From contig CALMWA010000092.1 of the NCBI GenBank assembly GCA_937873125.1, forward strand, positions 1-34,867: 34,867 nucleotides of DNA, written 5' to 3'. The notes below the pieces were generated by a model. It saw only the letters and a program-made list of their open reading frames with translations. It did not search any database and was not told the DNA's origin. Position numbers and translations under genes: made by a program. Source of the stretch: an uncultured Actinomycetes bacterium (GTDB taxonomy: Bacteria > Actinomycetota > Rubrobacteria > Rubrobacterales > Rubrobacteraceae). Shown piece after piece: positions 10,477 to 34,432 of the stretch. The number at the start of each line of letters is the position of its first letter. Position 1 is the stretch's first letter.

Positions 10477-11919
10477 ATGGCGAATCCATTTATCAACGGT
10501 AGTTACGCGGAGTTTTCCCAACTCGACAGCATGACTATCGTAGATCCATCGAACGGGGAAGAGGTAGACACCGTACCGGCCAGCGGCGCGGCCGAGGTGG
10601 ATCAGGCGGTCAGGAGCGCCTACGATGCTTTCCCGGCCTGGCGTAACATCCCGGCGGCGAAGCGGGGGGAAATTTTGGGTAAAGCCGCCCACGCGGTTAT
10701 GGCCGCCACCGAAGAGTTGGCGCCCATGCTGACCGCCGAGCAGGGCAAGCCGCTGCGCGAGGCGCGGCTGGAGATCCGGCGCTTCGTTCACACCCTGGAG
10801 CACTACGTGGGGCTCGCCAAGAGCATCCGGGGCGGTTACGTGCCGGACCTCGACGTGGATACCTACGGCTTGATAGTGAGGCGCCCTTTGGGGGTCATCG
10901 GCGCGATTGTGCCGTGGAACTTCCCGACGACGCTTCTCGGCAACAAGCTCGGTCCGGCGCTGATTACGGGCAACGTCGTGGTGGCGAAGCCGGCGGACAC
11001 GACCCCGCTCACCACGCTCCGTATCGCGGAGATCATGCACGAGGCCGGCCTGCCGGCGGGCGTGTTCAACGTGGTTACCGGAACGGGCGAAGGGGCCGGG
11101 CAGGCGCTCGCCGAGCATCCCCTCGTCCGCAAGATAGCCTTTACGGGCTCCACGCCTACCGGTAAGAAGCTGATGGCGATCGCATCCAACGATCTCAAAC
11201 GCACCACCCTGGAGCTCGGTGGCTCGGACCCTATGATCGTCTGCGACGACGCGAATCTGGACAAGGCGGCGAGCGCGGCGAGCGTTGGCCGGTTCTTCAA
11301 CGCGGGCCAGGCCTGTCTGGCGATAAAACGCGTCTTCGTCTTCGAAAGCGTGGCGGATGAGTTTATCGAGAAGCTCGCGGTCAAGGTCAAGAAACTGAGG
11401 GTCGGACCGGGGACGGCCGAAGGTGTGATGCTCGGTCCGCTTCACTCGCCGCGGCAGCGGGATCTCCTCGAAGAGCAGGTCCAGAGCGCCGTGGACTCTG
11501 GCGCCGAGGTGCTGCACGGGGCAAAGCGGCCGGAAGGCAACGGAATCTCCAAGAGAGGGAACTTCTACGAGCCTACGTTGCTGGTTGAGCCTTCGCATGA
11601 TTCCAGAGTCGCGACCGAGGAGGTCTTCGGGCCGGCGCTGCCCGTCTGGCGGGTGGGGAATATGGAGGAGGCGCTCCAGCTCGCCAACGGGACCGAGTTC
11701 GGGCTCGGTTCCTCTATATGGACGGCTGACCTCAACCGGGCTTCGGACGCGGCGGAGAAGATCGAGGCGGGGTACACCTGGATCAACTCCCCCCAGATCG
11801 TCTACGACGAGTTGCCCTTCGGAGGCTGGAAGCAGTCAGGCTACGGCAAGGAGCACGGGATCGAAGCCCTCGACTATTACACGGAGACGAAGTCGGTCGT
11901 AGTCAAACGCGCCGTCTGA
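10477..11919 (+). CDS. NAD(P)-dependent aldehyde / succinate-semialdehyde dehydrogenase family
   Basis: 480 aa; PWNFPTTLLGNKLGPALITGNVVVAKP, FTGSTPTGKKL, LELGGSDPMIV, FFNAGQACLAIKR. Confidence 0.94.
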   Translation: MANPFINGSYAEFSQLDSMTIVDPSNGEEVDTVPASGAAEVDQAVRSAYDAFPAWRNIPAAKRGEILGKAAHAVMAATEELAPMLTAEQGKPLREARLEIRRFVHTLEHYVGLAKSIRGGYVPDLDVDTYGLIVRRPLGVIGAIVPWNFPTTLLGNKLGPALITGNVVVAKPADTTPLTTLRIAEIMHEAGLPAGVFNVVTGTGEGAGQALAEHPLVRKIAFTGSTPTGKKLMAIASNDLKRTTLELGGSDPMIVCDDANLDKAASAASVGRFFNAGQACLAIKRVFVFESVADEFIEKLAVKVKKLRVGPGTAEGVMLGPLHSPRQRDLLEEQVQSAVDSGAEVLHGAKRPEGNGISKRGNFYEPTLLVEPSHDSRVATEEVFGPALPVWRVGNMEEALQLANGTEFGLGSSIWTADLNRASDAAEKIEAGYTWINSPQIVYDELPFGGWKQSGYGKEHGIEALDYYTETKSVVVKRAV

Positions 11920-11936: not shown

Positions 11937-13517
11937 ATGATCGAGATACCGGACTGGTACAACGCAAGCGTTCTCGTCGACCGGAACCTGGAGGCCGGAC
12001 GTGCTGATAAGGTGGCGATCTACTTCGGTGACGAGCAGATAACCTACGGGGAACTAGCCCGCCGCATAAACAGGTTCGGGCACGCCCTGAGAGAACTGGG
12101 CGTGGACCGGGAGGACCGGGTACTCCTGATGCTGAACGACACGCCGGCCTTCCCGACGGCGTTCTTCGCCGCGGTGCGGATAGGGGCCGTACCGATCCCG
12201 GTCAACACCCTGCTGCAGCCGGCGGACTACCGTTTCTTCATCGAGAACAGCCGCGCCCGCGTCGTGATCTGCGACCAAATGCACCACGAGACGATCCGTA
12301 AAGCCCTCGAAGACTACGGCGAGGAGCGTGTGGAGGTCATTGTGACCGGCGGCCGGGCGGAAGGAGCGCACGTCCTGGAGGAACTGCTGGAGACCGGGGA
12401 AGACAAGCTTGACCCGGTTGCAACGCACAAGGACGACCCGGCCTTCTGGCTGTACAGCTCTGGCTCGACCGGCAAGCCAAAGGGAGCGGTGCACCTGCAC
12501 CACGACATCATCTACACCTGTGAGACCTACGCTCGGCACGTGCTAGAGGTATCGGACGAAGACGTGTGCTACTCGGCCTCCAAACTATTCCACGCCTACG
12601 GTCTGGGCAACGGGATCTCTTTTCCGTACTGGGCCGGAGCCTCTTCGGTCCTCTTCCCCGGCCGACCGACGCCACAGGCGGTCCTGGAGACCATCGAGCG
12701 GTACAAGCCCACGCTGTTCTTCTCGGTGCCGACGCTCTACAACGCAATCCTCAACCACGCGGACGCGACAAACTACGATCTCTCCTCCATCCGCTTGTGT
12801 GCCTCGGCGGCCGAGGCGCTGCCGGCCGGTATGTGGAATCGTTGGAAGGACACCTTCGACTTGACCATCCTCGATGGTATCGGCAGCACAGAGATGCTAC
12901 ACATCTTCGTCTCCAACACCGTTGAAGCGATCAGACCCGGCTCGAGTGGAAAACCCGTCCCCGGCTACGAGGCGAAGATTCTGGATGAGGAAGGCTACCC
13001 AGTCGAGCCTGGCGAGGCAGGATATCTCTCGGTCAAGGGCGATAGCGCGGCGGCTTACTACTGGCGCAACCACGAGAAGACGAAGAGCACCATGAAGGGA
13101 GAGTGGCTCTTCGCCGGGGACTGGTACCGGGTGGACGAGGACGGCTTCTACTGGTACGAGGGACGCTCGGACGACATGATCAAGGTCAGCGGCCTCTGGG
13201 TCTCGCCGGTCGAGATCGAGAGTACCTTGATGGATCACTCCGCCGTGGTCGAAGCCGCGGCGGTGGGTATTCCTGTAGACGACCTCACTCGCGTGAAGGC
13301 CTACATCATCCTGCGGGAAGGCTACGAGAGGTCAGAAGATCTGACGGTGGAGCTTCAGGACTGGTGCAAGGAACGGTTGAAGCGCTACCAGTACCCCCAT
13401 TTGGTGGAGTTCGTGGATGACTTGCCAAAGACGGTCACCGGCAAGATCCAACGCTTCAAACTGCGCGATCCGGAACCCGCGGTACAGATGCCCCAGCAAG
13501 AGGACGAGTTGGTCTAG
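11937..13517 (+). CDS. Benzoate-CoA ligase family protein (BadA-like, ANL superfamily)
   Basis: 526 aa; YSSGSTGKPKGAVHLHHDIIYTCETYARHVL, DGIGSTEMLHIFVSN, VSGLWVSPVEIESTL, PKTVTGKIQRFKLR. Confidence 0.92.
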   Translation: MIEIPDWYNASVLVDRNLEAGRADKVAIYFGDEQITYGELARRINRFGHALRELGVDREDRVLLMLNDTPAFPTAFFAAVRIGAVPIPVNTLLQPADYRFFIENSRARVVICDQMHHETIRKALEDYGEERVEVIVTGGRAEGAHVLEELLETGEDKLDPVATHKDDPAFWLYSSGSTGKPKGAVHLHHDIIYTCETYARHVLEVSDEDVCYSASKLFHAYGLGNGISFPYWAGASSVLFPGRPTPQAVLETIERYKPTLFFSVPTLYNAILNHADATNYDLSSIRLCASAAEALPAGMWNRWKDTFDLTILDGIGSTEMLHIFVSNTVEAIRPGSSGKPVPGYEAKILDEEGYPVEPGEAGYLSVKGDSAAAYYWRNHEKTKSTMKGEWLFAGDWYRVDEDGFYWYEGRSDDMIKVSGLWVSPVEIESTLMDHSAVVEAAAVGIPVDDLTRVKAYIILREGYERSEDLTVELQDWCKERLKRYQYPHLVEFVDDLPKTVTGKIQRFKLRDPEPAVQMPQQEDELV

Positions 13518-16113: not shown

Positions 16114-17073
16114 ATGAGCACGACGGCTGTAACCGAGGAGATACTTCTCGACAGGATCAAGAGTGGGAAGTTGATCGAGGACTCCTCTCAGGCGACGGAG
16201 AGGTACATCGAGGGGCTCAAACGCACCCTGATCGTCTCCGCCGACACCGAGCTCATCAGTGCTCCGGCCTACATGAACGCGACGAAGGACTTCTCGACGC
16301 TACCGAGCGTCAACAACTACATCACCGTAATGGGCATCGTGCAGGACGAGTTGGGGCACGCGCACATCGCCTACCGGATGCTCCGGGACCTCGGGGTCGA
16401 CACGGAGGAGCTCGTCTACGAGCGGTCACCGAAGCAGTTCAAGTACCCGTATGCTTTCGACGTGCCGCTGGAGAGCTTCACGGAGCTGGTAGTCGGCAAC
16501 GGATTCTATGACCGGGCCGGGTTCGTGCTGCTCTCGGACATCCACCAGAACTGCTCCTACGGTCCGTGGAAGCGGGCGCTCGTGAAGGTGGACCGGGAGG
16601 AGAACTTCCACCTGCGGCACGGGGAGAAGTGGATGAAGGTGTTCTCCAAAGACCCGGAGAAGAAAGAAGAGCTTCAGCGGGCGGTCGACTGGATGTTCCC
16701 ACTGACGCTCGAGTGGTTCGGGTTGCCCGATGGCAGGAAGCGCCACAACGAGCAGATCGAGTACGGCTACAAGGGCTCGACCAACGACAAGCTCCGGCAG
16801 ACCTGGATGTCCCACACCGTGCCGCTGTGCGAGAGCCTGGGCCTCGACGTGCCGGCCCACTACGACGCGGAGCAGGACCAGTACATCATAGACTTCCCGT
16901 TCCCGGCCCAGTTCGATGCCGAGGAGAAGCGGTGGATGTTTGAGGATGGCGAGATCTCCTGGGACGACGTGCTCAAGCGCTGGAAGGGGCGTGGCCCGAA
17001 GAACGAGGAGTACGTCGAGCACCTGCAACGCGGCTACAAGGAACTGTACGGCAACGGAAACGGGGCGGTGTAG
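16114..17073 (+). CDS. PaaA-type aromatic ring 1,2-epoxidase (phenylacetyl-CoA oxygenase alpha subunit-like), divergent
   Basis: QDELGHAHIAYRMLRDLG and DREENFHLRHGEKWM diiron ligand motifs; TNDKLRQTWMSHTVPLCESLGLDVP matches the PaaA C-terminal pattern. Confidence 0.88.
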   Translation: MSTTAVTEEILLDRIKSGKLIEDSSQATERYIEGLKRTLIVSADTELISAPAYMNATKDFSTLPSVNNYITVMGIVQDELGHAHIAYRMLRDLGVDTEELVYERSPKQFKYPYAFDVPLESFTELVVGNGFYDRAGFVLLSDIHQNCSYGPWKRALVKVDREENFHLRHGEKWMKVFSKDPEKKEELQRAVDWMFPLTLEWFGLPDGRKRHNEQIEYGYKGSTNDKLRQTWMSHTVPLCESLGLDVPAHYDAEQDQYIIDFPFPAQFDAEEKRWMFEDGEISWDDVLKRWKGRGPKNEEYVEHLQRGYKELYGNGNGAV

Positions 17074-17075
17074 CC

Positions 17076-17399
17076 ATGCGGGAGGTGATGCGAACGGTAA
17101 CGACGGAGGAAGTACGCGACGCTTTACGGGAGGTGCTGGACCCGGAGTACCCGATCAGCCTCGTGGATCTCGGCCTTATCCGGGGCATCGAGGTCGTCGG
17201 AAACAGGGCCGACATAAAGCTGACGTATACCTGCATGGGGTGTCCTGCGATGGACATGATTCAGGAGGACGTCGAGGAGCGGCTCCTCCAGATGGACGGC
17301 ATCGACAAGGTGGAGATCGAGGTCGTCTGGCCCACGTGGTCGAAGAACGACATCACACCACTGGGCAAGAAGCAGCTCAAGCAGGTCGGGGTCGTCTGA
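17076..17399 (+). CDS. MIP18/PaaD N-terminal-domain iron-sulfur maturation protein (PaaD lacking zinc ribbon)
   Basis: 107 aa; VLDPEYPISLVDLGLIRGIEV, CMGCPAMDMIQEDVEERL, VWPTWSKNDITPLGKKQLKQVGV; no cysteine zinc ribbon at the C-terminus. Confidence 0.88.
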   Translation: MREVMRTVTTEEVRDALREVLDPEYPISLVDLGLIRGIEVVGNRADIKLTYTCMGCPAMDMIQEDVEERLLQMDGIDKVEIEVVWPTWSKNDITPLGKKQLKQVGVV

Positions 17400-17596
17400 T
17401 GCGCCCGGTGGACAACTACGAGGTCTTCACGGCGCGAGTCGGCGAGGAGCATCCTCTGCGGCACAACGGAAACGTCCGGGGTGCGGAGCCGGTCGACGCA
17501 GCAGTCTACGCGCACCTCATGTACGACGAGTGGCGCTGGCGCGAGATGTTCGTCGTGCCGAGCAAGTCCATCGTCCGGGTCATCCGGCCGGAATAA
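17399..17596 (+). CDS. PaaB-like oxygenase subunit (copy 1)
   Basis: 65 aa, ATG overlaps previous stop (ATGA type); NYEVFTARVGEEHPLRHNGNVRGAEPVDAAVYAHLMYDEWRWREMFVVPSKSIVRV resembles PaaB YEVFvR..l.HvGsv.A.. Confidence 0.75.
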   Translation: MRPVDNYEVFTARVGEEHPLRHNGNVRGAEPVDAAVYAHLMYDEWRWREMFVVPSKSIVRVIRPE

Positions 17597-17605
17597 GGAG
17601 GAGCG

Positions 17606-17812
17606 ATGGAGAAATTTATGGTCTTCGCGCGCACCGAGTACGACGAGCCTCTGGAGCATCGGGGCGAGGTCGAGGCTTCGGGCGCCGAAGAGGCGAGCAA
17701 GCTCGCCCTGGAGCATTACGGAAAAGACTGGCTGGAGATGTCGCTCGTGCCGGTAGGCGAAGTCTACTGGGCCGAGCGCGAGGAAGAGATCGAAGTGGGG
17801 GTGGAGTCGTGA
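17606..17812 (+). CDS. PaaB-like oxygenase subunit (copy 2)
   Basis: 68 aa, RBS aaggagg; FMVFARTEYDEPLEHRGEVEASGAEEASKLALEHYGKDWLEMSLVPVGEVYWA. Confidence 0.72.
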   Translation: MEKFMVFARTEYDEPLEHRGEVEASGAEEASKLALEHYGKDWLEMSLVPVGEVYWAEREEEIEVGVES

Positions 17813-18624
17813 GCGAGCGTCCCGAAGGCACCGAGGCGGTAGCACCGGGACGCGGCGCGCAGAGCGAGTTCCTGGTGGACAACGATGACGCGCTCGCCGC
17901 GCTGGTCAACCTGATCGCAGTCATAGGAGACAACGAGTACTTCCTGGGCCGCCGCGTCTCCGAGTGGGCCGACGCCGGACCCCTGCTCGAATCAACGGCC
18001 GCCTGCGCCGCGATAACGCAGGACAAGCTCGGACACTCGCGGGCGATCTACCCACTTTTAGAGGAGCTTCCGTGGCCGAAAGCTCCCACGGGGCTTCAGG
18101 GCGAGATCGACCGGGCGCGGCGGTACTCGGTTAGCTTCCTGGACGATCCCCTGCCGAGCTGGTCGAACGTGGTCGCCGCGCTCGCGCTCGTGGGACCGGC
18201 GGTAAACGTCGTGCTGGAAGCCGTGGAAAACTCCCGGTACGAGGCGCTCGCCAGGCGGGCGCACCGCATCCTGGACGAGGAGAGACTTACCTCGGCCTAC
18301 GCCGAGGGGCTCGTGAGGCAAATCGCCTACGAGGAGCGGGGTCGCAAGCTCCTCCAGGAGCGCGTCAACGAACTGTTGCCCGAGATGCTCTGCTGGTTTG
18401 GTCCCGAGGGAGAATTCGGCATAGAGGCCCTCAAAGCCGAGGGACTGACGAGCATGGGCAACGAGGAGATGCGCCAGAGGTATCTGGACCGCATCGCTCC
18501 GCTGCTTCAGGGCTGCGGCATAGAAGTTCCGGTCGAACGCAACGAGAGCGAGGGTAGATGGGAGTACGGAGAGCTGCCGTGGAAAGAATGGAACCAACTC
18601 CAGAGACGCTTAGAAAGATCGTAG
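17809..18624 (+). CDS. PaaC-type phenylacetyl-CoA oxygenase structural subunit
   Basis: GTG at 17809 overlapping previous stop; LVNLIAVIGDNEYFLGRRVSEWADAGPLLESTAACAAITQDKLGHSRAIYPLLEEL; WFGPEGEFGIEALKAEGL. Confidence 0.85.
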   Translation: MSERPEGTEAVAPGRGAQSEFLVDNDDALAALVNLIAVIGDNEYFLGRRVSEWADAGPLLESTAACAAITQDKLGHSRAIYPLLEELPWPKAPTGLQGEIDRARRYSVSFLDDPLPSWSNVVAALALVGPAVNVVLEAVENSRYEALARRAHRILDEERLTSAYAEGLVRQIAYEERGRKLLQERVNELLPEMLCWFGPEGEFGIEALKAEGLTSMGNEEMRQRYLDRIAPLLQGCGIEVPVERNESEGRWEYGELPWKEWNQLQRRLERS

Positions 18625-18785
18625 CGGGAGAACCTGTCGGCGAGGGCGAGGATCAACGCCGGTTGGCCTGCCCCTGGTGCGACGCCGGTGACGTCGAGAA
18701 GGTCTCCGAGTACGGGCCGCACCTGATGGTCTACTCGTATATCTGCCGGGATTGCCACAGCCCGTTCGAAGTCATCAAGCGATGA
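18588..18785 (+). CDS. Stand-alone PaaD-type zinc-ribbon protein
   Basis: ATG 18588 (MEPTPETLRK); ACPWCDAGDVEKVSEYGPHLMVYSYICRDCHSPFEVIKR matches the C-terminal zinc ribbon normally fused to PaaD (CPxC...SEFG...Y.C..C..PF..FK); overlaps paaC 3' end. Confidence 0.8.
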   Translation: MEPTPETLRKIVAGEPVGEGEDQRRLACPWCDAGDVEKVSEYGPHLMVYSYICRDCHSPFEVIKR

Positions 18786-19567
18786 CCGAGCAGCCGGGCC
18801 TGCGAACGACCCTCGAAGCCGGTATGCTCCTCGTCGAGCTCAACCGTCCCGAGAAGCGTAACGCCCTGGACGAGACGGTGCAGGGCGAACTTCTGCGGCT
18901 CTTCGAGGGCGCCGCCGGGGACGCGGAAGTGCGCGGCGTTATCCTGACCGGCAGCGGCGAGGCTTTCTCCGCCGGGGGAGACCTCTCCAGGTTCGAGCGT
19001 GATTGGAACCCCGCCGAGTTCCGGGCGCAGAGCCACGAGCTATCCCGGCTCATCTCCTCCATCGAGCGGCTGGAGAAACCGGTCATCGCGGCCATCAACG
19101 GGCTTGCGACCGGCGCGGGGACCCAGCTCGCCCTTTCATGCGATCTGCGTATAGCGTCGGAGAGCGCGCGGTTTTTGTTCCGGGAGGGCATGATCGGCTT
19201 TATCCCGAGCCACGGTGGTTGCGTTCGTCTGGTCAAGCTCGTCGGACTGGCGCGGGCGCGGGACATCCTGCTCGGCGGCGAGGATTTGAGCGCCGAAGAA
19301 GCCTTCCGGCACGGGCTCGTCACCCGCGTGGTACCGCATGAGAGGCTACTGGATGAGGCCAGGGAACGGCTCCGGCACATCTTCAAGCGGGCGCCGCAGG
19401 CCTACGGGCTCAGTAAGCGGCTGCTGCATCTCTCGGCCAGCGTGGACCTTGAGAGCGGCCTCTTTGCGGAGAGTCTGGCCCAGAGCCAGTTGATCGGAAC
19501 CGAAGACCACAAGGAAGGCGTGCGGGCCGCCCGAGAGCGGCGCCGTCCGTCGTTTACGGGGAGGTAA
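18782..19567 (+). CDS. Enoyl-CoA hydratase/isomerase family protein (PaaG-like)
   Basis: MTEQPGLRTTLEAGMLLVELNRPEKRNALDE, AFSAGGDLSRF, INGLATGAGTQLALSCDLRIAS; start overlaps preceding stop. Confidence 0.9.
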   Translation: MTEQPGLRTTLEAGMLLVELNRPEKRNALDETVQGELLRLFEGAAGDAEVRGVILTGSGEAFSAGGDLSRFERDWNPAEFRAQSHELSRLISSIERLEKPVIAAINGLATGAGTQLALSCDLRIASESARFLFREGMIGFIPSHGGCVRLVKLVGLARARDILLGGEDLSAEEAFRHGLVTRVVPHERLLDEARERLRHIFKRAPQAYGLSKRLLHLSASVDLESGLFAESLAQSQLIGTEDHKEGVRAARERRRPSFTGR

Positions 19568-23205: not shown

Positions 23206-24435
23206 TTGTTCGTGCGGCTAACGGGTCCTGAGCCGCCCGGAGAGGTAGGACGCAACCTGCGGGACTCCGTTCGGAACACGAACTCCTCCACCTTGGGCGC
23301 GGGTTTTGTGGCTTTCCTGCTCGGTGCTACGGGTCCCGCGCTCTTGGTCTATCAGGCCGCCACGAACGCCGGGTATGCGGCTGAGGTGATCAACTCCTGG
23401 TTCTTCGCCATCTACGTTGGAGGCGGGCTGCTCAGCCTGCTCCTGGCCTTTCTGTACCGCGAGCCGATCTGCGGCGCGTTCCCGATCGCCGGCAGCGCCC
23501 TTTTGGTCACGGCGCTCGCCGGATACAGCCTCGCCGAAGCGGTAGGGGCGTTTCTCGTCTCCGGGATACTCATCGCCCTGATCGGTGTCTCGGGACTCTT
23601 CGATGCGATCATGTCGCGGGTGCCGAACGAGGTCATCATGGGGGCGCTGGCGGGCATCCTTTTCAAGTTCGGGACCGAGGTCTTCGCGTTTCTGCCGAAG
23701 CAGCCGCTGCTGGTCGGTACTATGGTGGGGACGTACCTCGTCAGCTTCCGCCTGATCCGCAGGCTGCCGCCGGTCCTTCCGGCCCTCGCGGCTGGTCTGA
23801 TCGTCGCTGGCTTCAGTGGCCGGTTCGACGTCGGCAATGTCCGCTTCTCCCTCTCGCATCCGGTATTGGTCGCGCCCTCCTTCGATCCTGGTGCGATCTT
23901 CTCCATCGCCGTGCCACTGACCCTGCTCGCGGTCGCGACCCAGAACGCGCCGGGCGTCGGCATCCTCTGGGCCAACCGGTACGAACCTCCAGTCAATGCC
24001 ATAACGATCTTCAGCGGGGTCGGCTCGATACTGACGGCGCCCATGGTGGGCAACGGCTTGAACATAGCCGCGCCCATGACGGCGGTCTGCGCGGGAGCCG
24101 AGTCGCACCCGGACCGCGAAAACCGCTACGTCGCCACGGTAGTACAGGGACTTCTCTTCGTGGCCTTTGGGCTGGTGAGCGCTACGGCCATCTCCCTGAT
24201 TCAAGCTCTCCCGGTCGCGCTGATCGTGAGCCTGGCCGGTCTGGCGCTCCTGCCCGTGATATTCCAGGCGCTTCGGCTCTCTGTTGGACAGAAGGACCAC
24301 ACCCTCGCGGCCGGTATTACCCTGCTTATAGCGGCCTCGGATCTGAGCATACTGGGCATCAGCTCGGCATTCTGGTCTATAGTGGCGGGCATCATTCTGG
24401 CTCCTATTCTGAAACAAGTTGCGAAAGAAAAGTAA
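23206..24435 (+). CDS. BenE-family benzoate/aromatic acid transporter (start codon uncertain)
   Basis: AFLLGATGPALLVYQAATNAGYAAEVINSWFFAIYVGGGLLSLLLAFLYREPICGAFPIAGSALL; LTLLAVATQNAPGVGIL. Confidence 0.88.
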   Translation: MFVRLTGPEPPGEVGRNLRDSVRNTNSSTLGAGFVAFLLGATGPALLVYQAATNAGYAAEVINSWFFAIYVGGGLLSLLLAFLYREPICGAFPIAGSALLVTALAGYSLAEAVGAFLVSGILIALIGVSGLFDAIMSRVPNEVIMGALAGILFKFGTEVFAFLPKQPLLVGTMVGTYLVSFRLIRRLPPVLPALAAGLIVAGFSGRFDVGNVRFSLSHPVLVAPSFDPGAIFSIAVPLTLLAVATQNAPGVGILWANRYEPPVNAITIFSGVGSILTAPMVGNGLNIAAPMTAVCAGAESHPDRENRYVATVVQGLLFVAFGLVSATAISLIQALPVALIVSLAGLALLPVIFQALRLSVGQKDHTLAAGITLLIAASDLSILGISSAFWSIVAGIILAPILKQVAKEK

Positions 24436-30113: not shown

Positions 30114-30383
30114 CTACAGGAAGGCGCCGGCGTCACCGGGGCGGGAGGGGACGCCGAGCTTTTCGATGGTGAGGTATTTGGTGGAGCGTAGCAGGTAGAA
30201 CCGGACGGAGTCGTGGTCAGGGTCCATGATCTTCATCACCTCGTGCCGGAGCTTCTGGTATTGGGCGGGGCTTAGTTCGCCTTCGAGGACGGAGTTCTGG
30301 ATGTGGTTGAGGTACTTGCGTCCTATCTTGAGGACTTTGGTCACTCGTTTTACGTCCACGTCGTAGACCATCAGCACGAACAT
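30114..30383 (-). CDS. cas2: CRISPR-associated endonuclease Cas2
   Basis: MFVLMVYDVDVKRVTKVLKIGRKYLNHIQNSVLEGELSPAQYQKL; the longer ORF start at 30599 overlaps cas1 and is rejected. Confidence 0.96.
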   Translation of the reverse strand: MFVLMVYDVDVKRVTKVLKIGRKYLNHIQNSVLEGELSPAQYQKLRHEVMKIMDPDHDSVRFYLLRSTKYLTIEKLGVPSRPGDAGAFL

Positions 30384-30396
30384 GAGGACTCCCTGG

Positions 30397-31416
30397 CTAC
30401 CACCTGGAGACGTATGGTTCGTAGGGCTCGTCGCCGAGGAGGTGTTTTTCGAGCTTGTAGAGTTCCAGGCGGACGAGGCGGCGGTAGGAGACGGCGCGGC
30501 CGAGCTTGGGATGCTGGACGGTCTCCCGGAGGCGGGTTTCGTAGGCTTCGAGGAAGGTCTTGCGGCCCTTCTCCGTGAGGAAGACGCCGCCGGCCTCATC
30601 GCCGCCCTGGAAGTCCTTCGCCTTGAGGGCGCCGCGGTTGACGAGCGAGAAGATCACGCGGTCCACGATGATGGGCTTGAAGATCTCCGCCACATCCAGG
30701 TTCAGGGTGTAGCGGCGGCGGTTGGTGGTGTGCAGGAAACCTATGCGGGGGTCGAGGTGGGTGCGGTGGATCTCGCTCAGGGCCGTCACGTACATGAGGC
30801 TGTTGCCGAAGGAGACCAGCGCGTTGATCCTGTTGGCCGGAGGGCGGCGCGTCCTCTTCTCGAATGCGAAGTCCTCGCCCTTCAAGATGGCGTCCCAGCA
30901 CCCGTAGTACAGCTCGCGGCTACCGCCTTCGAGGGCCATCAACTCCTCGGTAGTGGAAGGTGCGGCCTCCAGGTCTCCCACGACCGCCTTGCGCCTGGAA
31001 ACCTCCGCTACCGCCCCACTCACGGCCTCGCCGGCCCCGCGTCCGCCATAGTATTTCAACACACGCTCCATGTTGGCGAGCGCCCCGCGCACGAAGGTGC
31101 GGGCGAGGACCATGCGCTTCTCGTGGTCCAGGTAGTGGGAGGCCTGGGCGAGCGTCATGTGGCCGGAGACGTACTGCTCGCGCGGCATGTACGAGCCCGA
31201 CCAGTAGCCGTAGTAGTTGTACACGTGAAGGGGGATGTGGCTCCGGGAGAGGAAGTTCAGGAGCTTCGAGTTCAGCGTGATCTCACCGAAGACGTGGATC
31301 TCACTCGTAGTCTCCACCGGCACGAACCTTCGGCCCTCGGCGGTCGTAAAGCGCAGGGTGTTCTGGTGACGTTCCAGGTCGCCCGCGTTAAAGACGTAGA
31401 CCGGGTTCCTGCTCAC
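30397..31416 (-). CDS. cas1: CRISPR-associated endonuclease Cas1 (type I-B-like)
   Basis: VSRNPVYVFNAGDLERHQNTLRFTT, NSKLLNFLSRSHIPLHVYNYYGYWSGSYMPRE, LVSFGNSLMYVTALSEIHRTHLDPRIGFLHTTNRRRYTLNLDVAEIFKPIIVDR; GTGA overlap with the cas4 stop. Confidence 0.95.
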   Translation of the reverse strand: MSRNPVYVFNAGDLERHQNTLRFTTAEGRRFVPVETTSEIHVFGEITLNSKLLNFLSRSHIPLHVYNYYGYWSGSYMPREQYVSGHMTLAQASHYLDHEKRMVLARTFVRGALANMERVLKYYGGRGAGEAVSGAVAEVSRRKAVVGDLEAAPSTTEELMALEGGSRELYYGCWDAILKGEDFAFEKRTRRPPANRINALVSFGNSLMYVTALSEIHRTHLDPRIGFLHTTNRRRYTLNLDVAEIFKPIIVDRVIFSLVNRGALKAKDFQGGDEAGGVFLTEKGRKTFLEAYETRLRETVQHPKLGRAVSYRRLVRLELYKLEKHLLGDEPYEPYVSRW

Positions 31417-31910
31417 GACCAGCAGAACTCCGCGTAGGCGCAGCGTTTGCAGAACGGTATCTTCACGGCTGGCGGTGGGGCCGGCTCGTGCAACAGCGCC
31501 TCTATCTTCGCCATCGTCTCCTCCACCTCCGCAGCCAATTCCAGCGTAAGCTCCACTGCTTCGCGCTTGCGCTCCTTGGGGATCAGGATCTCCCCCGAAG
31601 CCTTCACCCCTTCCTCGCGCAGCCGCCACAGATAGTACCCGAGCTGGAGGCGCGTGGCCGGCAGGAAACGCGAAGACTTCTTCACTTCGGAGACGACCAG
31701 GCGATCACCTTCGCGCCGGACCTGATCCAGGCGCATCCCCGGCAGCGAAAGCTCCTTCGTCGCCCTCCCGTAATGCGCCTCCTGATTCAGCCGTCCCTGC
31801 GCCAGCAACTCGAACTCCCTCTCCGGCTCCACCTCGTGCGCCATCAGCCACGCCTCACGCGGACAGATGGCGTAGTACCAGACGAGCGTGCCGGTAATCT
31901 GGGTGCTCAT
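31413..31910 (-). CDS. cas4: CRISPR-associated exonuclease Cas4
   Basis: 165 aa; YAICPREAWLMAHEVEPE, VSEVKKSSRFLPATRLQLGYYLWRL, C-terminal CKRCAYAEFCW cluster. Confidence 0.95.
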   Translation of the reverse strand: MSTQITGTLVWYYAICPREAWLMAHEVEPEREFELLAQGRLNQEAHYGRATKELSLPGMRLDQVRREGDRLVVSEVKKSSRFLPATRLQLGYYLWRLREEGVKASGEILIPKERKREAVELTLELAAEVEETMAKIEALLHEPAPPPAVKIPFCKRCAYAEFCWS

Positions 31911-34432
31911 AGAATGGCTGCTCCGAGATCATCCCACTTGAACCCGGTCTCCATATCGAAGTACCTCGGCGTTTCCGCGCAAATGTCAGCGTTAGGGATG
32001 TAACGATAATCAGACATAGCACGATGTTCATGTTTCGCTGGCAGGTTCTTCTCGGCGCGACGAGTGTAAGGGGCGATTACGAACGGTCCTATAGCCCGGT
32101 ACGCTTCTCGGAACTCGTGTCTGTTGCCACCATTTTCGTATAAGGATGCGAGATGTTCGATGGCGTGTTCGGCACGATCGTTTACGCCCACGAGGATCGA
32201 GACCTGCTCCTTATATTCGATGTGCTGGTATTTGCCGACCGTTACGCGATCGTCCCGGTGTTCATGGAATCGTAAAGACTTCATGGCTTCCACAAAGTCT
32301 TTGGAGAATTGGTCGCTTGAGCGGTCGGAGACCAGGCTGAAATATTCGGTTATCTTGTCGTACATCTTGGCCTCTTCTACAGTGCCGTAGAGCACTTCGT
32401 GGGTTATTTGAGGCAGGATGTTGCCGTAGACCAGCGTCACCGGAGGACGGCCCTGATCTCTCTCCAGATAGACGATGTACACAGGCCTGGGCATATCGGA
32501 TGCACCCGATCGGTTACCCCGGCCGGCCACCTGGACTATGGAATCGAGAGGCCCCCGATCCCGGACTACGACATCGAAGTCCAGGTCCACGCCCGCTTCG
32601 ATCACCTGAGTCGAAATCACGACGGGGTTGACGCCAAGCTCCATCCATTCGCGTAGCATTTGCACCCGATAAGCCCGCTGCCACGGCGTCAGGTTGGTGG
32701 ACAGATGCACCAGCGGTCGATCTTTGCCACCCTCCTGCGGCACGTCCTCCCGGTACGGGACGAGACCCGGCAAGTCGCGCAATTTTCGGTACAGGCCCAC
32801 CGCGTCGCCGATAGTGTTTACCACCACGAGTAGCGATGAGTCCTCTTCGATCAAGTCCTCACAAAAATCTTGCAGGTCTTCCAGCGTCCTCACGTCCGGC
32901 CTCGGGATGATAGTAGTGCGAGACAGGCCCTCGAAGTGCTTCTCGGGACGGTCCAGGAGTTCACGCGCGCCGGGCAGGATGTGCGGGCGGGTAGCCGTCA
33001 TCTGGAGCACGGTACATCCCAACTGCTCGGTCAGCGTGTTGAGCGTGTACTCCACGAGCCCCCACTGTTCGTAGGGGATGCTCTGCACTTCGTCGAGCAC
33101 CACGATAGCGCCGGCCAGGTTGTGGAGCTTCTTTAGCCTGCGGTTGCGGTTGGTCACGAGGCTCTCGAAAAGTTGGACAAAAGTCGTGACTACAATCTCC
33201 GACTCCCACGACTCCGTCAGAAGCAAGGCCTTATCGTTCGTGACGTCCTGATCTTCACGGAACGCCTGTGGGGCCAGATGGTGGTGCTTGAGCAGGTAGC
33301 TCGAAGGCGAATGCTTGTAGTCAGCGTGCCTCTTTAGAACCTCCTCCACGACCGCAAAGTTCTGATCTATGATGTTCACGAACGGCAGCGCGTAGATGAT
33401 TCTGGGTAGGTAGCCCTTTTCTTTTCGCACTCGCTCGCGCAGTCGCAGGGCGCAACCGAGTGCGGTCAAAGTCTTCCCCGACCCGGTGGGAGCGGTCAGG
33501 CTCAGGATGCCGGGATGAAGCTCTTCCAACGGCAGCCGCTCCACGGCGCTCACGCCTTCCGCGTACACGGTCTGCCGGATCTCGTTGAGCCGTCTTTCCG
33601 TCTTTCCGGGCTTCGGATTGACCTTGAAGCCCGCGATATGCTGGTCCACCAGCGAAGATGGGATGGTCCTTCGCAAGCGCGCCTCTTCAGAAGCGGGTTC
33701 CAGTCCCGCAGTGGCCGATACGTGCTTATCGGCATCTATAAGCGCGGAGAAAAGCAGGAGTTGCCTCCAATACCGCCGGGAAACCGACGATTCATCCGAA
33801 GAGGATCGCATAAGGTCGTCGTACGAACGGCGTAACTCGCCCAGCGCTTCCCACCACCGCTCCAGGTCCAAAAACTCCTTGACCTCGGGTATGCCGAGCG
33901 CGTGCATTTCTTCCAGCACGACCTCTCCGCCGCTTTCGCGTATGTCTTTCAGTTGCTCATGCACGGCTCGCAGTTGGAGTTTGAGCGATTTTTCCACGCG
34001 ATGAAATTTCGGAGCATCGCTCAACTCCCGCTGGAGCGGCAGGATTTCTTTTGGGGTAACCAGGTGTCCGTGGTGGCGGTGGATCGCCAGATAGACTAGA
34101 AGCGCGGCCTCTGGATCCTCTGGGAAGCGGAAGCTAACCACGAAAGCTCCCAGCAACGCCGAGACGAAGGCGTGATGACCGTACTCTTCGACGGGAGGCT
34201 TTTGTTTTTTCGGAGGAAGCTTGTTCTGGAAATACGACGTGTACTTGCCGAAGTCGTGCGTCAGGCCGCAGATCGAAGCGAGCTCCGAAAGGTGCTCGCC
34301 GTCGGGAAGCGCGGGGTTGTCCAGTAGGCTCCGCCGGCCACGCTCCGCGACCGTCTCCAGGTGCAACTTGAGCGGCTCCGCCTCCCTTGATACTTCTCCG
34401 CGTTCGTCTGCTGGACGCGCTAGGAAAGTCAT
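31907..34432 (-). CDS. cas3: CRISPR-associated helicase/nuclease Cas3 with N-terminal HD domain
   Basis: 841 aa; ICGLTHDFGKYTSYFQNKL, LTAPTGSGKTLTALGCAL, VVLDEVQSIPYEQW, LQMTATRP, VISTQVIEAGVDLDFDVVVRD. Confidence 0.96.
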   Translation of the reverse strand: MTFLARPADERGEVSREAEPLKLHLETVAERGRRSLLDNPALPDGEHLSELASICGLTHDFGKYTSYFQNKLPPKKQKPPVEEYGHHAFVSALLGAFVVSFRFPEDPEAALLVYLAIHRHHGHLVTPKEILPLQRELSDAPKFHRVEKSLKLQLRAVHEQLKDIRESGGEVVLEEMHALGIPEVKEFLDLERWWEALGELRRSYDDLMRSSSDESSVSRRYWRQLLLFSALIDADKHVSATAGLEPASEEARLRRTIPSSLVDQHIAGFKVNPKPGKTERRLNEIRQTVYAEGVSAVERLPLEELHPGILSLTAPTGSGKTLTALGCALRLRERVRKEKGYLPRIIYALPFVNIIDQNFAVVEEVLKRHADYKHSPSSYLLKHHHLAPQAFREDQDVTNDKALLLTESWESEIVVTTFVQLFESLVTNRNRRLKKLHNLAGAIVVLDEVQSIPYEQWGLVEYTLNTLTEQLGCTVLQMTATRPHILPGARELLDRPEKHFEGLSRTTIIPRPDVRTLEDLQDFCEDLIEEDSSLLVVVNTIGDAVGLYRKLRDLPGLVPYREDVPQEGGKDRPLVHLSTNLTPWQRAYRVQMLREWMELGVNPVVISTQVIEAGVDLDFDVVVRDRGPLDSIVQVAGRGNRSGASDMPRPVYIVYLERDQGRPPVTLVYGNILPQITHEVLYGTVEEAKMYDKITEYFSLVSDRSSDQFSKDFVEAMKSLRFHEHRDDRVTVGKYQHIEYKEQVSILVGVNDRAEHAIEHLASLYENGGNRHEFREAYRAIGPFVIAPYTRRAEKNLPAKHEHRAMSDYRYIPNADICAETPRYFDMETGFKWDDLGAAIL

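Follow-up and report, generated by a model that had tools for sequence, protein, structure and literature searches.

In textbook bacteria PaaD is a single polypeptide, a helper protein of an aromatic-ring oxygenase. The canonical fused form (TIGR02159; E. coli, Klebsiella, Sinorhizobium) combines a MIP18 domain with a zinc ribbon, accompanies a PaaABC-type oxygenase and, in the order PaaABCDE, is encoded behind paaC, with the PaaE reductase next in line. Catalysis in vitro proceeds without PaaD, yet the protein is indispensable in vivo: knockout of any of paaA-E stops the pathway, whereas PaaA, B, C and E are enough in vitro (PMC4498308, PMC9493321). The likeness of PaaD to SufT suggests a role in iron incorporation (PMC4498308, PMC9493321).

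Three other systems are relevant. The principle of a two-gene PaaD is already known from haloarchaea (Haloferax, Natrinema plasmids), in which NF041868 'PaaD' and NF041869 'PaaE' are a MIP18-only protein and a stand-alone ribbon encoded in an operon with paaABC. Members of the SufT/MIP18 family (TIGR02945, PF01883; PDB 1uwd, 2cu6, 3lno, 5ird) share the MIP18 fold and the conserved Cys in GCP(A) and have no zinc-ribbon partner; one of them, TTHB138 (2cu6), is unsupported as a split PaaD of Thermus, with only 60 bits. BoxAB, the benzoyl-CoA epoxidase, carries out di-iron epoxidation of an aryl-CoA supplied by benzoate-CoA ligase.

The operon described here lies in a 34,867-nucleotide stretch of the genome of an uncultured member of the Rubrobacteraceae (the window). 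It shares with fused PaaD both modules and their logical order, also with a PaaABC-type oxygenase, but the modules are encoded by two genes, the MIP18 gene stands behind paaA, there are two half-size PaaBs and PaaE is missing. Haloarchaeal operons are annotated A-B-C-D-E, with D (MIP18) and E (ribbon) adjacent, and have one full-size PaaB and an oxygenase of the canonical branch; in contrast, the halves are separated in the window and the oxygenase belongs to a separate clade of Paa-type oxygenases, here named clade III. Against NF041868 and NF041869 the window proteins scored 95.6 and 30.1 bits, below the equivalog cut-offs of 180 and 100. Unlike the SufT/MIP18 family, the window MIP18 falls within the Paa-associated clade.

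The two PaaD modules in the window and its genome

An earlier note on this DNA had read PaaD as split into a MIP18 protein lacking the ribbon and a separate PaaD-like ribbon, with two paaB-like genes and paaC in between. Both open reading frames were present, with a complete PF01883 domain at residues 11-83 of the first and PF23451 matching the second (1.3e-11), and the three intervening genes were all found, as 17399-18624 (Table 1). The order paaA-MIP18-paaB1-paaB2-paaC-ribbon is tightly packed. MIP18 starts 3 bases past the paaA stop (17073/17076), B1 shares 1 base with the MIP18 stop codon (17399), B2 starts 9 bases past B1 with GGAGG in front, the last 4 bases of B2 are also the first of paaC (17809-17812), and the first 37 bases of the ribbon gene lie within the 3' end of paaC (18588-18624), leaving the halves of PaaD about 1.2 kb apart. 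An alternative MIP18 start is possible at 17088; the ribbon frame is open from 18558, and relatives at loci L053 and L054 align from 18588. A frameshift or assembly artefact was ruled out by the separation of the halves by two paaB-like genes and paaC and by the same order in dozens of independent assemblies. Elsewhere in the window (30114-34432, minus strand), translations read by eye indicated cas2, cas1, cas4 and cas3-like genes of a type I CRISPR system.

Table 1. Features of the window discussed in the text
Feature	Position	Strand	Evidence
Benzoate-CoA ligase family protein	11937..13517	+	TIGR02262 609 bits, cut-off 375
PaaA-like catalytic subunit (di-iron), clade III	16114..17073	+	PF05138 1.8e-60; TIGR02156 122 bits, cut-off 280
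MIP18-domain protein, N-terminal half of PaaD	17076..17399	+	PF01883 1.1e-21; NF041868 95.6 bits
PaaB-like subunit B1, 65 aa	17399..17596	+	hhalign to PaaB 98.2%, 5e-14
PaaB-like subunit B2, 68 aa	17606..17812	+	hhalign to PaaB 94.8%, 5e-8; to B1 99.3%
PaaC-like structural subunit	17809..18624	+	PF05138 3.4e-34; TIGR02158 79 bits, cut-off 133
Stand-alone zinc ribbon, C-terminal half of PaaD	18588..18785	+	PF23451 44.4 bits, cut-off 27
Enoyl-CoA hydratase/isomerase, adjoins ribbon gene	18791..19567	+	crotonase-family models, all below cut-off
BenE-type benzoate/H+ symporter	23206..24435	+	TIGR00843 274 bits, cut-off 203

Each of the two window proteins is homologous to one half of PaaD. The MIP18 protein scored 77.3 bits against PF01883 (gathering score 23.5), has the conserved Cys in its GCPA motif and found its best NCBIfam match in the haloarchaeal PaaD NF041868, with SufT-type models at 68 and 62 bits. 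It ends where the linker of fused PaaD starts, and the zinc ribbon is absent after that point; sequence comparison placed the split boundary in the variable linker, with no domain cut. The ribbon matched positions 100-144 of the 146-position model TIGR02159, for which the cut-off is 108 bits and the window halves, as separate proteins, gave 66.2 and 31.5 bits. Profile-profile comparison of the split MIP18 with the MIP18 half of fused PaaD gave 99.9%, and hhalign of 83 split ribbons against 42 fused-PaaD ribbons gave a probability of 99.4% (E 6e-21), compared to 0.1-0.3% for unrelated pairs used as controls.

A profile search thus placed the ribbon in the PaaD ribbon family, with PF23451 above cut-off, and not in an unrelated one; an FmdB/PF09723-type match was sub-threshold. 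The pattern CxxC ... CxxC was present in 95 of 96 relatives, and the four Cys were invariant in the 27 relatives compared. In the AF2 model of the window ribbon, three strands were confident over residues 31-65 (block pLDDT 86-95) and the N-terminus was of low confidence. No solved structure of a split ribbon was found by sequence search. Fold matches were weak (E 0.06 at best) and included chains of the vanillic acid decarboxylase ShVdcCD.

A fused PaaD elsewhere serving the oxygenase is ruled out. Searched with the PaaD model, the genome (3.74 Mb, 98.9% complete) yielded the two window halves, MIP18 frames on contigs C14 and C205 and one marginal 12-bit match, with no fused PaaD; PF01883 added a fourth MIP18, on C120. 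One PaaA/PaaC pair was found in the genome, and no second. BoxB was not found, BenA and PaaK gave nothing over cut-off (best PaaK match 35.7 of 646 bits), and no PaaE-type reductase exceeded its cut-off, with partial ferredoxin-domain matches only. Two short frames, G000:C445:6408-6665 and G000:C431:2071-2325, gave 54 and 53 bits to the PaaE model, in both cases within its C-terminal 2Fe-2S part alone. They are candidate electron donors for the window oxygenase, the only ones seen in the genome.

Distribution of the two-gene layout

Of 398 genomes surveyed in the phylum, 110 had PaaD-type ribbons. When 85,462 species genomes were scanned with a PaaA alignment, 407 relatives came up, of which the best 80 were taken, a choice that favours the nearest relatives and undersamples the true breadth. 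In total, 97 distinct loci were examined, including plasmid records of Thermus and haloarchaea. Among them, all 73 loci that extended 3 kb or more past paaA had both modules, never in one open reading frame (0/73), and neither module was ever lost singly from these complete loci. The order was A-MIP18-B-(B2)-C-ribbon in 71 of the 73, and the ribbon preceded A in two. Two PaaB-like genes were present in 40 loci, B1 only in 30 and B2 only in one, the remaining two being the ribbon-upstream loci. The gap between MIP18 and ribbon ranged from 856 to 2187 nt.

The split layout was found in Rubrobacter, other Actinomycetota, Chloroflexota, Acidobacteriota, Armatimonadota, KSB1, Thermus and haloarchaea. 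The loci fetched from the window's own family showed A-MIP18-B1-B2-C-ribbon (one, L060, is cut by the contig end before paaA), as did other actinobacterial families. Six actinobacterial genomes (G028, G227, G281, G076, G260, G098) had a clade III operon together with a canonical A-B-C-fused D operon. The split is real, and it is no oddity of a single genome: a large, uncharacterised branch of these oxygenases has it as its standard layout, in many bacterial phyla and in archaea.

Several details were recorded on the way. The ribbon upstream of paaA, rather than behind paaC, was seen in Chloroflexi (L131:6743-6886, L150:4998-5129). In public plasmid records the ribbon and, in Thermus, the second PaaB-like gene as well were without annotation (L081:10438-10608 and 11377-11532; L082:9300-9449; L084:8310-8435), the PLSDB gene table being known to be incomplete; also in Thermus, the annotated start of an enoyl-CoA hydratase overlaps the ribbon in another frame. 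Haloarchaeal clade III operons are adjoined by genes for a GNAT acetyltransferase and a stand-alone 2Fe-2S ferredoxin (L082:5787-6573, L083:5872-6638, L185:8615-9381), the latter of which might replace PaaE as electron donor.

The oxygenase and the role of the two proteins

The window oxygenase is of the Paa type (PF05138), as the earlier note had it, but it is probably not a phenylacetyl-CoA epoxidase. It is a distant relative: its PaaA shares about 30% identity with the canonical protein, and PaaA and PaaC fell far short of their equivalog cut-offs (Table 1). Read by eye in the alignment, E46, E79, H82, D133, E163 and H166 of the window protein align with the six iron ligands of E. coli PaaA, E42, E72, H75, D126, E155 and H158 (PMC4498308). 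The bridging Lys68 of the E. coli enzyme is replaced by Ile75, and no Lys was seen here in relatives checked by eye. B1 and B2 had no Pfam match at E<=1, and their assignment comes from profile-profile comparison. Both, along with L185:7387-7596, gave weak matches (20-22 bits) to TIGR04031, 'Htur_1727 family rSAM-partnered candidate RiPP', which raises the question whether that family is PaaB-like rather than one of RiPP precursors.

The replaced Lys68, the low equivalog scores and the neighbouring genes for benzoate activation and uptake argue for another substrate, as does the genome without PaaK. The neighbours point to a benzoyl-CoA-like compound, which the benzoate-CoA ligase family protein of the window would probably form. 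A benzoate-CoA-ligase relative was near a minority of clade III loci, 16 of 60, vs 0 of 17 fused loci, in an uneven comparison (most clade III loci had 7 kb flanks and fused loci about 11 kb in total). The chemistry of BoxAB is suspected for the window too, although BoxB was not detected in the genome and the window oxygenase is Paa-type with A, B and C.

Taken together, we read the operon as encoding a clade III di-iron multicomponent oxygenase of the Paa type with a two-protein PaaD, of which the fused form is derived, whose halves act in trans and whose oxygenase uses an aryl-CoA; we give this reading a probability of about 0.6. Under it, the MIP18 protein and the ribbon would cooperate in trans, much like the tethered domains of fused PaaD, and would mature or assemble the oxygenase, by loading iron into PaaA or by assembling the A/B/C complex. 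The maturation role is carried over from the PaaD literature, namely the knockouts and the likeness to SufT. Joint action of the halves on the di-iron oxygenase is likely. In place of phenylacetyl-CoA, the substrate would be another aromatic acid activated with CoA, for instance benzoyl-CoA. The fixed positions after paaA and after paaC suggest that MIP18 may serve PaaA and that the ribbon may dock on PaaC; a Rosetta-stone search found no natural fusions of MIP18 to PaaA or of the ribbon to PaaC. More tentative is the fuller proposal that clade III is an uncharacterised aryl-CoA ring oxygenase, probably for benzoyl-CoA or a relative and an alternative to BoxAB, with an ancestral two-protein PaaD in which MIP18 attends to the catalytic subunit and the ribbon to PaaC or the complex.

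The ribbon might instead belong permanently to the A/B/C complex as a structural or rubredoxin-like subunit, its four Cys binding Zn or Fe to stabilise PaaC or carry electrons, with MIP18 alone as the maturase. We consider this unlikely. It would suit a ribbon gene directly behind and overlapping paaC, an operon and a genome without a PaaE-type reductase over cut-off, and the ShVdcCD chains among the weak fold matches; however, those matches have E values of at least 0.06, canonical operons have a ribbon on PaaD plus PaaE, so that the ribbon is not a reductase substitute, and PaaD was not detected in purified PaaABC complexes (PMC9493321).

Fusion, fission and what the layout means

Three architectures can be distinguished: fused (I), adjacent as in haloarchaea (II) and separated (III). 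In a joint tree of PaaA and PaaC, each paralogue rooted with the other, III was set against I+II with a support of 92 in PaaA and, less clearly, 51 in PaaC; the fused-type PaaCs formed one group (99) beside the haloarchaeal PaaCs. A MIP18 tree (98 columns), rooted on SufT/Mrp domains, gave III at 97/83 vs II+I at 96/85; I together with the other fused rows (the fused row L023 carries the label 'other' in this tree) had 99/88, and the haloarchaeal adjacent form was sister of this fused clade; Paa-associated MIP18s, clade III included, stood apart from SufT/Mrp (99/96). In a concatenated A+C+MIP18 tree, I, II and III had supports of 99/93, 100/100 and 100/100. In the MIP18 and concatenated trees, fused PaaD was thus one clade with its two nearest outgroups both split, so the fusion is most likely derived. 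To account for this, a single fusion at the base of I is enough, and it is preferred because fission needs more events. Fused PaaD therefore probably arose from an older two-gene state, and the idea that a fused PaaD had been split here gave way to fusion within the canonical clade.

The opposite history, in which ancestral PaaD was fused and clade III and haloarchaea underwent separate fissions, is improbable. The PaaA part of the quick joint tree, taken alone, nests the haloarchaeal group in the fused clade, with a support of 36 that does not decide between a place inside and one outside, but the fused clade with its split outgroups holds in the other two trees, the SufT/Mrp outgroup MIP18s are also without a ribbon, and this history would require two or more fissions on top of an earlier fusion. 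That a SufT-type Fe-S factor and a generic small zinc protein are unrelated accessories and neighbours by chance, as MIP18 domains outside paa operons and the FmdB/PF09723-type match might suggest, is very improbable, since both modules occur strictly together (73/73 loci), the MIP18s of clade III fall together with those of Paa operons and apart from SufT/Mrp, and the ribbon passes the PaaD-ribbon cut-off and fails that of PF09723.

In the literature searched, with subscription journals mostly outside its coverage, neither clade III nor a split bacterial PaaD was found described; the clade as a distinct group of oxygenases, with its layout and breadth, does not appear to have been reported before. 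Clade III proteins are annotated only as 'Phenylacetic acid catabolic protein', with the ribbon often unannotated, and a route of aromatic degradation may be hidden in this way. PaaD, required in vivo and dispensable in vitro, has so far been without a proven role, and with its modules as separate genes each can be deleted, purified and metal-analysed alone. The separate-first polarity implies that the modules were partners before they became one protein. If PaaD was ancestrally two proteins, with MIP18 for PaaA and the ribbon for PaaC, two functions of PaaD would be genetically separable.
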